Source: a virus. From it: a stretch of 56,300 nucleotides of DNA. This document shows positions 37,048-56,300 of the stretch, piece after piece. The position numbers and the translations under genes are program-made. Each line of letters starts with the position of its first letter. The first letter of the stretch is position 1. The DNA lies in IMG/VR virus record IMGVR_UViG_3300036816_000056, positions 1-56,300 of that record; one strand, written 5' to 3'. The notes under the pieces were generated by a model that was not told the DNA's origin, did no database searches, and saw nothing but the letters and a program-made list of their open reading frames with translations.

Positions 37048-37061
37048 TTTCACTCATTTCA
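37048..37061 (+). repeat. TTTCACTCATTTCA direct repeat, copy 2
   Basis: This is the second copy. It overlaps the last codon of the recombinase gene, so part of the match may come from coding sequence. Confidence 0.5.
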
Positions 37062-37619
37062 TCTCAACTTGAGAATTGCCCTATCCATCATGTCCTGAGT
37101 TAACCCAATATAGTCCAAAGTCTCTCTTGGATCGCTGTGTCCAAACATCTCCATTAGTAACGCTAAATTCTCTGGATCATCGACATAAAGACGGTATGCC
37201 CAGGTCTTTCGCAATGAGTGAACACCTATATCTTTCAATCTGAATTCACGAGCTGCTTCACTCAGAAAACGATATGCAGTGGTCCGATCAATCGGCTGTT
37301 TCCGCATTCGACTTACTTTTTTAACTTGGCGGCTTGGAAATAGACAATCATTCGGGAACATGTCCGCAGTGTACTCATCTAGATCTGATCGAATACTCGG
37401 ATGAATTATAAATGTTTTAGCATGCTTGTTCTTTTGCTCAACCATGCTTATGTGAGTTCCCTTGGTTTGCCACACCCTAAGACTAAGCAAGTCAGAAACA
37501 CGAAGTCCGCTGTATATACCCATACAAAAAAATAAGTAATTGCGCATGCTTCGTATATAGAAGTATTCCTTCATTCCATCTATAACCCGTTCATCACGGA
37601 TAGGCTGGACTTTCCTCAT
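37059..37619 (-). CDS. Tyrosine recombinase, catalytic domain only
   Basis: In this 186-residue protein all catalytic residues are present: R40 ('YSGLRVSDLL'), K63/K65, H134-x-x-R137 ('VHSLRKTW'), H161 ('FGHSD') and Y170 ('DYIGL'). It lacks the N-terminal arm and core-binding domains of normal integrases (the window's main integrase has 432 residues). It lies just before the late genes and is coupled by ATGA to the upstream 55-residue gene. It could resolve genome concatemers or act in recombination on repeats nearby. Confidence 0.88.
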   Translation of the reverse strand: MRKVQPIRDERVIDGMKEYFYIRSMRNYLFFCMGIYSGLRVSDLLSLRVWQTKGTHISMVEQKNKHAKTFIIHPSIRSDLDEYTADMFPNDCLFPSRQVKKVSRMRKQPIDRTTAYRFLSEAAREFRLKDIGVHSLRKTWAYRLYVDDPENLALLMEMFGHSDPRETLDYIGLTQDMMDRAILKLR

Positions 37620-37831: not shown

Positions 37832-38600
37832 ATTTACGTTATTATATGGATTTAAGATAACATTCTTTTCATTCGGAATTACTTCGTTTTTTGAGACTTC
37901 AACGCCAAGAAATAATTCCTTAGTTGAATGAACGATTGCCAGCGTTAGTAAACGCATCAAGGATAAGAAATTGTTGCTGAAGGATATGGCTGAGGAAACT
38001 AAGAAACCTAGATAAGTTAATAGAGTTGATCAAGCGTTCATTTATAACTCCAATAAAACATTCACCGAACAACAAGCCCTATTCACCGATCTGGAAGCTC
38101 GTTAAAGTAAGATGAGTTTTTTTTTAGTATTGTTGTAATAAGTACATCTGCATTACTCTATATAAAGAGAGAGAGACGAAATAATAAGAAAAATGTAGAT
38201 CCTGAAGGAGTCCTTTTATATTGGGTAATGATAATTACTAACTCTATATTTCTAAGTTTCTAAGAAAATCTAACTTATTAAAAAAAAGTCTTCTAGATGT
38301 CTTTAAGTTGTTTTTTGAAAAGAAAAATTAAAAAGACTAGTGATTTTTTTAAACTACTTTAAAGAGTTATTTCTAAAATAAATAGAGAGGAAAAATTCAA
38401 TAAAATGGTAAATTTAAATTAAGTTTCAGTCTATTCTAACCAATGTTTTCTTAAGAACAGTTAGATCTATTTATTTACTTTTTTTATTTCTTTATAGGTC
38501 TTTTAAACTAAATGTAGTAAATGAAAAATGCAAAAAACTATATGTTGTATATAGGAAAATACTGGGTAATTCTTTTCTTTTCTTTAGGGTAAAGTTCTAG
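37832..38600. other. AT-rich non-coding stretch with a possible coding remnant
   Basis: There is no convincing gene in these ~770 bases. At 37940-38105 the plus strand reads like a fragment of a protein interrupted by one TAA ('ASVSKRIKDKKLLLKDMAEE' and then 'NRVDQAFIYNSNKTFTEQQA' in the same frame), which looks like a decayed gene end. At 38195-38250 a good ribosome site leads only to a six-codon frame. The rest is very AT-rich with repeated T and A tracts. Confidence 0.5.
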
Positions 38601-38623
38601 TATAGTAAACTTAATTTAAGTTT
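38601..38623 (+). promoter_or_regulatory. Probable promoter and palindromic operator of the three-gene operon
   Basis: TATAGT at 38601-38606 is a candidate -10. It abuts a perfect 17-base palindrome AAACTTAATTTAAGTTT at 38607-38623, 16 bases before the first gene. This placement suits binding of a repressor at the transcription start. Confidence 0.5.
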
Positions 38624-38639
38624 AGGGTGGTGTACATAT

Positions 38640-38981
38640 ATGGTAGAAGCAACACGAGAAATGATTAAATACATTGATACTAAGAGTAATGACTATAAAA
38701 GAACATACGCCAATTCCACTCAATCAGCATCAAATCCTCAAGGGGATGTGGTAATTGATTTTTATGAAGAAGTTCTAGTTCCCTTAATGGTTGTTGAAAG
38801 ACCTCTTGATGTGCAAGATGATGATCAAGTGATTCTTAATCGAAAGCCAAATTATTTAGAGATTGAAAGAGAAAAAAAAGTATCTATCACTTTAACTAAA
38901 TCACGAGCTGTGGAGTTGGCTCACTGGATATTAGATAATGTATTAGAGGAGGATGAGGGTAATGACGACGAAAACTCGTGA
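38640..38981 (+). CDS. Operon gene A, DUF3467-like small protein
   Basis: In this 113-residue protein a strand-rich core ('RTYANSTQSASNPQGDVVIDF') is followed by an acidic linker and then a final strand-helix unit ('KVSITLTKSRAVELAHWIL'). The order 'Y-A-N-x...D-x-x-x-D-F' then 'I-T-L-T/S-x-x-x-A-x-x-L' resembles DUF3467-type proteins. ATG at 38640 follows GGGTGGTG. It is first in a three-gene plus-strand operon that runs against the phage genes. Function unknown. Confidence 0.65.
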   Translation: MVEATREMIKYIDTKSNDYKRTYANSTQSASNPQGDVVIDFYEEVLVPLMVVERPLDVQDDDQVILNRKPNYLEIEREKKVSITLTKSRAVELAHWILDNVLEEDEGNDDENS

Positions 38982-39492
38982 AGACCATAAAGTTTATCCT
39001 TTCGGAGATCCACACGTAGGAATACATATTAGTCGATATCAATCCGGGATGCCTTCCACCGAAGACTGGATGAGAACTGTTAGAGGTTCTGGAATGCAAA
39101 ATATATACGATTATACAATGGGATTAACTGATGATATTGACAGGATAAGAGAACTATTTGATCGTATAAGAATAAACATTGGGACATCAGCAAATACTGG
39201 ATCGCATAAGCTAGAAGCGGGCGGTGATGCTAATATGTTAGAGCAAATAACCAATGCGTTTTTAAATTTACAGAACGCGTTAGAGGTTTATCATCGAAAG
39301 ATCAGAGAACAACATGAATTCGTAGTTGTGTTTAAAGAAGATCACCCTAAATTAGGGAGATTTTTGGCTGAAGTGCAAGTCAGAGCTTTCAAAGAATATG
39401 GGATTTACATTGAGTCAACTTTTGAATTGGAAGAAGAGTTTGATGCTGATGAACTCCCAGAAGACTACTCCCAGATTGGTTTTGGGGGGTAA
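38962..39492 (+). CDS. Operon gene B, unknown protein
   Basis: In this 176-residue protein residues 40-110 are helical with an Arg/Asp-rich stretch ('DDIDRIRELFDRIRINIG') and a long helix ('MLEQITNAFLNLQNALEVYHRKI'). The C-terminal half has alternating strand/helix ('EFVVVFKEDHPKLGRFLAE') and an acidic tail. The start at 38962 follows GAGGAGGATGAGGG and overlaps gene A by 20 bases. No family recognised. The tight overlap means it is made with gene A. Confidence 0.65.
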   Translation: MTTKTREDHKVYPFGDPHVGIHISRYQSGMPSTEDWMRTVRGSGMQNIYDYTMGLTDDIDRIRELFDRIRINIGTSANTGSHKLEAGGDANMLEQITNAFLNLQNALEVYHRKIREQHEFVVVFKEDHPKLGRFLAEVQVRAFKEYGIYIESTFELEEEFDADELPEDYSQIGFGG

Positions 39493-39497
39493 GAGAA

Positions 39498-39959
39498 GTG
39501 CCAAAGAAAGATGCTCATTTCAATAAATTAATGACCAATATTAACCTTATTCAAAGGTACGTTTCAGAGGCTCCAGAAAAGCCCATACCTAATGATTGGT
39601 TAGTTACTACGTACTTCTATACCGCATTACACGTTGTTGAAAAAAAACTGGCAGATGAGAAAGTCCATTCTAGGGATCATGCTCAAAGGTTTGCTAACAT
39701 TGAAGAACATTATAGGGATATCCTTGAAACATACCAAGCTATGTACATTGATAGCATGACAGCTCGTTACAAATGTCGCAATATTTCTTCTGAAACGGTT
39801 ATAGAGGCAAAGAATAATCTCTACAGCATTTGTGAAGAATTTAACGAGACCCGAATTATCAACCAACTAGATATTGCTCATGGTGTCGGTGTGGTGAAAG
39901 CAATGCCCACCCCTGTTACGCCACCAAGTCTTGATATTGACTTAAGTGATGCAAAATAA
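39498..39959 (+). CDS. Operon gene C, HEPN-like protein
   Basis: This 153-residue, nearly all-helical protein has 'WLVTTYFYTALHVVEKKLAD', then 'HSRDHAQRFANIEEHYRDIL', then 'YQAMYIDSMTARYKCRNIS'. The layout (paired helices, an H-x-x-x-H region, a Y-x-x-x-x-x-x-A-R-Y segment) resembles small HEPN proteins. One R-x6-H motif ('RFANIEEH') fits the HEPN RNase consensus, though not in the last helix where it usually lies. It starts with GTG at 39498, six bases after gene B, and two terminators follow. Confidence 0.55.
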   Translation: MPKKDAHFNKLMTNINLIQRYVSEAPEKPIPNDWLVTTYFYTALHVVEKKLADEKVHSRDHAQRFANIEEHYRDILETYQAMYIDSMTARYKCRNISSETVIEAKNNLYSICEEFNETRIINQLDIAHGVGVVKAMPTPVTPPSLDIDLSDAK

Positions 39960-39969
39960 ATAAACATAA

Positions 39970-40011
39970 AAAAAGGGCTCTTAGCGTAAAAACTAGGCGT
40001 CCTTTTTCTTT
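39970..40011 (+). terminator. Terminator after three-gene operon
   Basis: AAAAAGGGCTCTTAG and CTAGGCGTCCTTTTT form an imperfect stem, followed by CTTTTAC. It closes the operon. Confidence 0.7.
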
Positions 40012-40105
40012 TACAAAATCGCAATCTCGTGTTTACATTAACAGTAAAGAGAGAATGATAGATGAGAATCCCTCAGAATTAAGAAGACGTTTATTTACTA
40101 AAGTG

Positions 40106-40138
40106 AAAGCCCCGGCAACACAGTGCGGCAGGGCTTTT
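40106..40138. terminator. Bidirectional terminator at end of early operon
   Basis: AAAGCCC and GGGCTTT arms with an inner GCA/TGC pair; TTTTCTTG follows on the plus strand. It lies nine bases past the stop of the ArpU-like gene on the minus strand. Confidence 0.7.
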
Positions 40139-40146
40139 CTTGTGTT

Positions 40147-40779
40147 TCATTTCGGGATAAGTAATCCTAGTTCCCCTTCATTGTTTCGACCTCTACCATA
40201 GTCGATCGTTACAAGATCCAAGGTTCGATTGAATTTCAAACAATTAGCTATATTTGCTATAGCCCTTCGACGCTTATCAGCAAATGTTGTTGCTGCGATA
40301 CCGGGTACGTCCTTGCGATATCCTTTTTCCATGTAAACCTGTGCTTTCAGATACTTCTTGCCTTCCAAAAATAGCAGTCTCGCAGCTACACTCTCATGAG
40401 GATCTTTAATATTATTTATGGCGAATCGGACGTTATTGGTTATGAATACATAAAGCTTGTAGTTATCATGACGCTTGTCCTTCATAATTACCGAATTAGC
40501 TGTAACATCTGCTGTCAGCTCATGACCTGCTTCTCGCTTGGCAACTGAACCCTCAGCCGACAACAACTCATAGGCTGACATTCCGTTCTCAATCTGTTTG
40601 AGTGCATATTCATAATTTTGTATGATGTCGATCATGTCCACATATTTACCGAGGAGCCATTTGGTTTTACGAATATCTACTTCATCCACATCCGAAAAAA
40701 AGTTTAACTGAATGATCTTTTTGGTATCATCAATGTCTTCATGCTTAGGTGCGATAACTACTATTTCTTCTGTGCTCAT
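40147..40779 (-). CDS. ArpU-like phage late-gene regulator
   Basis: This 210-residue protein is at the end of the early operon, upstream of the late genes. It shows a helical body ('YVDMIDIIQNYEYALKQIEN') and a C-terminal sigma-region-4-like part ('VAARLLFLEGKKYLKAQVYM', then 'TFADKRRRAIANIANCLKF'), as in ArpU/RinA-type activators of terminase and structural genes. ATG at 40779 follows GGGAGGGAA. It probably turns on the late operon. Confidence 0.65.
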   Translation of the reverse strand: MSTEEIVVIAPKHEDIDDTKKIIQLNFFSDVDEVDIRKTKWLLGKYVDMIDIIQNYEYALKQIENGMSAYELLSAEGSVAKREAGHELTADVTANSVIMKDKRHDNYKLYVFITNNVRFAINNIKDPHESVAARLLFLEGKKYLKAQVYMEKGYRKDVPGIAATTFADKRRRAIANIANCLKFNRTLDLVTIDYGRGRNNEGELGLLIPK

Positions 40780-55001: not shown

Positions 55002-56300
55002 GTGGCAAAAGGAAGCATAGAAAAAAGAGGGAAAAATACATGGCGTCTTACGGTTGATTTAGGTTTAAACGGGGACGGCAGTCGCAATCGTCCCCGTAAA
55101 GCAATTACGATTGAGGATGAAGTCTTGTTAAGAACAAAGAAACGATTGAATGATCACCTTAACAATGAGTTGGCTAAATTTAAAATCGAAGTAGAAGCAG
55201 GAGAATATATCGCACCAGAAAAAACAACATTCATTAACTTCATTGAAGAATGGCGAGAAAAGTATGCTAGTAACCCCAACAACCTTTCTCAAACTACCTT
55301 AACTGTATACGAGAATGTGATTAAATCTCGATTAATACCTGTATTTAAGAATGATCGCATAGACCAACTTACCACTTTAAAACTCGTGTCTTTTTTTCAT
55401 GATCTAGAAAAACCAGGAACAAGGAAGCCTTCAAGTAGTAAGAAACCCCTAAGTGAAAAGCAAATGGCCAAACAACTTGAACCACTTGATGCCAGTACAC
55501 TAGCACATATCCATCGCGTACTAAAGAATATATTTTCCCGAGCAGTTGAGTGGAAAATAATAAAAGAAAATCCAATGGACGGAGTCAAAAAACCAACCTC
55601 AAAAAACGCAAAAGAGAAATTAATTGAACAACGGGACAATCCCCAATATTTCGATGAAATGGAGGCCCAAGAAGTTGTTGATGCTTTGTATAAAGAAACA
55701 AGAAAATGGCGGCTTTTAATATTAGGTTCAATGTTAGGAGGATTCAGACGTGGTGAACTTAACGGATTAGAATGGCCAGAAGTTCTATTTGACAATAACA
55801 CGATAAGAATTGAAAACAATATACCTCTCACTTTGAAGGGGCAAGCTGTAGAAAAAGGGCCGAAGTCTTTAGCTTCATTTAGAGATGTAGACATGCCAGA
55901 TTGGTATATGAATGAGTTGAAAATTTATAAACAGGAGTGGTTAAAAGAAAAAGAGTTTTTAGAAGACAAGTGGCTTGGTGCTGATCGGCAATTTGTTTTC
56001 CATAATGGCACAGGAACCCCCTACTATTACCAGCATCCTTCAAAATGGTGGAAGCGATTTTGTGATAGGCATAGTCTGCGGTACATTAAATTCCATGGCT
56101 TACGACACAGTGCCGGAACCTTACTACTTGAAGACGAGGATGAAGCTAATTATGATTCGATACTTATCGCTATTCAGAGGCGCTTAGGTCATGCCAGACT
56201 TTCCACAACATCAGACACGTATGTGCACGTCACTAAAAAGGTAAAGACTCGTGTAGCAGGAAAGTTAAATAAATTTGATCCTTCAGGTTTACGCAAATGA
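55002..56300 (+). CDS. int: Phage integrase (tyrosine recombinase)
   Basis: In this 432-residue protein the N-terminal arm-binding domain (1-60, 'GSIEKRGKNTWRLTVDLG') and core-binding helices at 75-190 precede the catalytic domain: R249 ('GGFRRGEL'), K288, H365-x-x-R368 ('HGLRH'), H397 ('LGHARL') and Y407 ('DTYVHV'). GTG at 55002 follows AGGAGG. It lies at the extreme right of the window next to ImmA, marking the prophage end where the attachment site should be just outside. Confidence 0.97.
   Translation: MAKGSIEKRGKNTWRLTVDLGLNGDGSRNRPRKAITIEDEVLLRTKKRLNDHLNNELAKFKIEVEAGEYIAPEKTTFINFIEEWREKYASNPNNLSQTTLTVYENVIKSRLIPVFKNDRIDQLTTLKLVSFFHDLEKPGTRKPSSSKKPLSEKQMAKQLEPLDASTLAHIHRVLKNIFSRAVEWKIIKENPMDGVKKPTSKNAKEKLIEQRDNPQYFDEMEAQEVVDALYKETRKWRLLILGSMLGGFRRGELNGLEWPEVLFDNNTIRIENNIPLTLKGQAVEKGPKSLASFRDVDMPDWYMNELKIYKQEWLKEKEFLEDKWLGADRQFVFHNGTGTPYYYQHPSKWWKRFCDRHSLRYIKFHGLRHSAGTLLLEDEDEANYDSILIAIQRRLGHARLSTTSDTYVHVTKKVKTRVAGKLNKFDPSGLRK

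Follow-up and report, generated by a model that had tools for sequence, protein, structure and literature searches.

The MNT antitoxins of the type VII HEPN-MNT (HepT/MntA) toxin-antitoxin systems carry a GSX10DXD motif between strands 1 and 2, which is required for AMPylation (PMC11586414). Among HEPN proteins, the AF0298-like HEPN-T and AbiV families lack the histidine of the Rx4-6H motif but possess another one, located between helices 2 and 3, that might provide an alternative site; moreover, several inactive HEPN families exist (PMC3710099). A HEPN gene of Thermus IN93-like proviruses has been proposed as an effector of lysogen defence (PMC11437467). Here we analysed a viral DNA stretch of 56,300 nucleotides (in the following the window; positions 1 to 56,300 of the IMG/VR virus record IMGVR_UViG_3300036816_000056), which harbours a three-gene operon, A-B-C, with a HEPN-like last gene. 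The A-B-C operon is real and conserved, and it is probably a toxin-antitoxin or anti-phage module without earlier description.

Cargo slot and operon structure

Among other IMG/VR records, the nearest has a terminase large subunit 97% identical to that encoded in the window; identity reaches 87% for a Paenibacillus contig and 82-83% for named Paenibacillus species. Together with the presence of an integrase gene (55002-56300), these identities indicate a temperate phage of the Paenibacillus type. Besides this integrase, a second recombinase of the phage-integrase family is found at 37059-37619, adjoining the terminase genes. Comparison with the closest sister phages shows 77-89% identity in both flanks of the operon (about 37890 and 40160) but a different stretch in between, from which the A-B-C cassette is missing. 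Hence, the cassette represents cargo. The same slot is occupied by a Gp49 toxin together with an HTH gene (HTH_3) of the HigBA type in L019, by HicA/HicB in L091, by DUF3800 in L006, by an AbiEii-like AAA ATPase (AAA_21) in L025 and by a CPT-type kinase in L028, whereby the left flank is less similar in L025, L028 and L091 and the slot was assigned there mainly by the right flank and its position. Some of the sister-phage slots also hold genes without assigned identity.

The first-pass annotation had described three plus-strand genes of 113, 176 and 153 residues that run opposite to the phage genes around them. All three are present as open reading frames, including the 20-base overlap between A and B, and the flanking genes that can be recognised as phage genes are indeed located on the minus strand (Table 1). 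B and C are separated by 5 bases, and an alternative in-frame ATG at 38953 would extend B to 179 residues. The G+C content amounts to 25% just upstream of the operon, to 32-38% across A-B-C and to about 43% further out. The supposed operator upstream of A exists as a perfect 9-1-9 palindrome, TAAACTTAA-T-TTAAGTTTA, matched by 1.5% of mononucleotide shuffles; as a conserved operator it had to be rejected, because it is absent from the near homologue L196. The leader TAGGGTGGTGTACATATATG (38623-38642, 20 bases around the start codon of A) is identical in L196, and the bases before it differ. Of the two terminators initially assigned, the first is strong, whereas the second (about 40104-40145) is no better than shuffled sequences (z -1.15). 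In the promoter scan, the number of sites did not exceed that in shuffles and none was situated just before A.

No good match was obtained for any of the three proteins in Pfam, PADLOC, PHROGs or NCBIfam. Regarding the anti-phage systems catalogued in PADLOC-DB 2.0.0, A and C of the window matched no family, B gave partial matches only (E 0.001-0.01), and the relatives of C gave no match of weight.

Table 1. Position of the cassette and its elements in the window.
Feature	Coordinates	Strand	Evidence
Gene A, 113 aa, similar to DUF3467 in outline, putative accessory component	38640..38981	+	ORF; identity to L196, L166 and L209; weak PF11950 matches
Gene B, 176 aa, variable N-terminus; predicted alpha-beta-beta-alpha-beta domain at the C-terminus, similar to MNT antitoxins but lacking GSX10DXD	38962..39492	+	
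C-terminal domain of B (residues 72-176)	39175..39489	+	AlphaFold2 model; best PDB matches are MNT antitoxins
Gene C, 153 aa, GTG start, HEPN protein by sequence, with H45, H61, R90 and Y91 as its alternative-histidine motif	39498..39959	+	Profiles and conservation
Palindrome upstream of A, absent from L196	38606..38624	.	Sequence; comparison with L196
Intrinsic terminator behind C	39965..40012	+	-14.9 kcal/mol; z -3.7 versus shuffles
Variable cargo slot separating the recombinase-side gene from the phrog_21810 gene	37900..40160	.	Both flanks matched in sister phages

Distribution and genomic setting

B and C used directly as queries gave no match in viral contigs, genome contigs or plasmids, and neither did small alignments of C or of B. 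A tblastn search led to the HEPN gene of the Thermus phage Tsatsa; in front of it lie two small genes, arranged as in the window. Of 398 Bacillota genomes, 28 were matched by the profile of C; true relatives occur in about 17 of these, and most of the rest contain MNT-HEPN pairs. The profile also matched in 3 of 399 Bacilli genomes and in 3 of 396 genomes of the family of G653. A degenerate DNA pattern derived from the DW..T..FY..A.H motif revealed 22 phage loci, nearly all of them B-C pairs. The loci L183-L193 from the first genome scan were discarded as relatives and rather look like ordinary MNT-HEPN pairs; among them, L190 and L184 show the HEPN gene only, L187 and L192 are doubtful, and the MNT of seven loci were used as controls.

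The whole A-B-C operon was found in L196 from a genome of the Paenibacillaceae family, with 56, 44 and 64% identity to A, B and C of the window, respectively, where its neighbours are an ADP-ribosylglycohydrolase gene and a pair of genes of holin- and amidase-like type. It is also present in the more distant L166, surrounded by housekeeping genes, in the phages L203 and L209, and in the Thermus IN93-like phages Tsatsa and L216/L229. L171, L173-L175 and L178 have the A-B-C order with a second small type of A, and the other B-C loci have either a larger gene in its position or no A. The co-occurrence of all three genes is thus not restricted to the window, since their order recurs in phages and bacteria. 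The core of the cassette is the B-C pair: a B-type gene, called by size, position and a C-terminal strand-helix pattern because the divergence of B exceeds what a single profile can cover, lies directly upstream of C in 42 of the 45 non-redundant C loci. In the remaining three, the sequence starts immediately ahead of C (L226), no B is seen (L197) or only a doubtful ORF is present (L217).

Several variants of this organization were noticed. A gene of about 210-250 residues replaces A upstream of B-C in L170, L182 and L202 (also in L177 and L194). The genomes G240 (L175 and L194) and G133 (L168 and L195) each contain two members of the C family. Furthermore, L215, L224, L227 and L228 form a tight phage subgroup of B-C pairs without A, in which B shares an acidic stretch followed by E...AK.N.

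With regard to the genomic neighbourhood, A-B-C precedes the integrase gene in Thermus IN93-like phages, and in L205 the B-C pair is located directly before terminase-like genes. L203 (1-6351; also L231) carries a phage-borne defence island behind the lysis genes, which comprises a STAND/TPR gene upstream of A-B-C and, downstream of the cassette, a NucC-like nuclease and a bSEFIR gene (E 4e-76). This setting fits an association of the cassette with phage defence, which is based on few loci. It might be argued that the cassette is a plain addiction module that stabilizes the prophage without any anti-phage role, as could be expected from its toxin-antitoxin-like gene order and from the HigBA and HicAB modules that sister phages carry in the same slot. 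The island in L203 and the defence function already proposed for the HEPN gene of Thermus IN93-like proviruses (PMC11437467) make this explanation somewhat unlikely.

The encoded proteins

The alternative that we prefer is a toxin-antitoxin or abortive-infection cassette. The conservation of B is confined to the C-terminal domain, while the N-terminus is variable. AlphaFold2 reached a pLDDT of only 37 with the B sequence alone versus a pLDDT of 83 and a pTM of 0.74 for residues 72-176 with six window and phage sequences. In the PDB, the top Foldseek match was 5yep_A, the antitoxin from the HEPN-MNT complex of Shewanella (E 3e-3, probability 1.00); MamM domains and KH domains of ribosomal S3 came next. 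VIA-align ranked the Legionella MNT in complex and alone first (Z 9.0 and 8.9, 89 residues) before two further nucleotidyltransferases, a CDF transporter domain (Z 8.6) and S3 KH domains (about 8.2), bearing in mind that rows differing by no more than 1 Z count as tied and that no structure match of the B model has an E-value below 0.001. The MNT rows span residues 14-105 of the model including the last strand, whereas most CDF and S3 rows cover 14-88. A search of BFVD with B gave no clear viral match. As a profile-detectable MNT, B was rejected, because profile-profile comparison with MNT resulted in 11% and 0.3%. The GSX10DXD motif is present in none of the 42 B genes versus all seven control MNT, and at the corresponding site the model has two strands (35-43 and 46-53) with a two-residue turn between them.

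The MNT likeness could reflect a common structural arrangement, because the CDF and KH domains score close and the Foldseek E-value is above 0.001. If B were unrelated to MNT, as the near scores of these domains and the missing profile link would allow, it could be a generic alpha-beta-beta-alpha-beta (CDF-/KH-like) sensor of RNA or a ligand that activates C in a two- or three-part HEPN defence. We regard this as unlikely, since the MNT rows include the last strand and rank first in both programs, and it is exactly MNT proteins that are known to pair with HEPN proteins. Judged from the fold ranking and the HEPN partner, it is rather likely that the C-terminal domain of B is MNT-like, and its constant 5' position together with this predicted fold makes B a plausible antitoxin-like partner.

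The initial assignment of C as HEPN-like was borne out. C and the HEPN protein of Tsatsa gave a pair score of E 9e-10, and the latter passes the Pfam HEPN cut-off (22.5 versus 22 bits); PF05168 was matched by 5 of 20 phage relatives, and the C profile aligned with MNT-associated HEPN proteins in hhalign (67%, E 5e-5), while window C itself had no HEPN match in Pfam. The R-x6-H motif noted initially (R64...H71) was abandoned as active site, because position 71 is a histidine in only 8 of 45 relatives. Invariant instead are W34, Y41, H45 and H61 (45 of 45 each), and among the 44 relatives having those positions R90 is constant in 43 and Y91 in all. A canonical Rx4-6H is not found in the family, as none of the positions 1-9 residues after R90 carries a conserved histidine in the 45 relatives. 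C has a conserved histidine (H61) upstream of a conserved arginine (R90), as is typical of AF0298 and AbiV, and is thus, on sequence grounds, a HEPN protein with such an alternative-histidine arrangement, which may act as an RNase. That C is enzymatically inactive and serves the phage itself in regulation or in the control of replication, as suggested by the lacking canonical motif and by the inactive HEPN families known (PMC3710099), is quite improbable given that H45, H61, R90 and Y91 are near-invariant across highly diverged relatives and that the cassette is missing from sister phages.

Window A has 56, 36 and 32% identity to its counterparts in L196, L166 and L209, respectively, and the proteins of the window type share 32-56% with it. 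Its assumed resemblance to DUF3467 is weak: 2 of 8 relatives touched PF11950 (best E 0.0033), and A itself had no Pfam match. The other small type of A aligned with the window type in the same register, yet at a probability of 4.5%. Our literature search, mainly covering non-subscription journals, found no paper that mentions DUF3467 together with HEPN. An accessory role of A is a guess.

Possible mechanism and relation to known systems

Three features, namely the gene order, the constant partner and the fold, point to an interaction in which B holds C and which A modulates. We therefore favour, with moderate confidence, a prophage-borne toxin-antitoxin or abortive-infection cassette in which the HEPN toxin C is inhibited by binding of B, a pseudo-MNT, with A as accessory. 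C would be the toxic effector, probably an RNase with an alternative site formed by R90 and by H61 from the helix 2-3 loop, perhaps also H45; alternatively, it might bind RNA and stop translation. B would retain the arrangement of an MNT antitoxin without the nucleotide-transfer loop and motif, and because these are absent it should neutralize C by binding and not by AMPylation. A, which occurs in Bacillota, Thermus and some phage versions and is absent from many B-C pairs, may sense the trigger or stabilize B. In the lysogen, the cassette could be expressed on its own, and superinfection or loss of the cassette would release C, by which it might contribute to defence. The original idea of a toxin-type or anti-phage system with A or B as sensor or antitoxin still stands with regard to co-occurrence, the HEPN assignment, the antitoxin-like B and the fitting cargo-slot and defence-island setting, whereas its R-x6-H active site does not and DUF3467 for A is only hinted at.

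Tentatively, the cassette might even belong to a widespread three-part family of phage-borne immunity or toxin-antitoxin systems new to description, combining an alternative-site HEPN, non-enzymatic restraint by a pseudo-MNT and release via a third, trigger-sensing protein. The novelty would be a HEPN module whose partner resembles the usual enzyme antitoxin yet lacks the catalytic motif. A large sister family of this kind would show that antitoxin function can outlast the enzyme, and it would offer a testable mechanism for many of the hypothetical genes that phages carry in cargo slots.

As in the type VII HEPN-MNT systems, a small partner gene immediately precedes the HEPN gene of the cassette (42 of 45 loci here), and the best structural matches of the B model are HEPN-MNT antitoxins. 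However, B lacks GSX10DXD and the loop holding it, C lacks RX4HXY, and many loci add gene A. Type VII systems involve AMPylation of a HEPN tyrosine, and C has a conserved tyrosine in Y91. Because the catalytic motif is absent from the partner, the cassette is not a type VII HEPN-MNT system as defined. With AF0298-like HEPN-T (PF05168) and AbiV, C shares the missing histidine of Rx4-6H, the conserved arginine and an alternative histidine between helices 2 and 3, but the partner genes differ and most members of the C family are too distant for PF05168. The Tsatsa/IN93-like proviruses have the same A-B-C order beside the integrase, and their lysogen defence effector has already been proposed; in the available part of that report (PMC11437467), the effector is the HEPN gene alone, A and B bear hypothetical annotations, and no description is given of the wider family. 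Finally, toxin-antitoxin-chaperone (TAC) systems also consist of three genes, an RNase toxin with two small partners, whereas the presumed toxin of the present cassette is a HEPN protein and not HigB-like.
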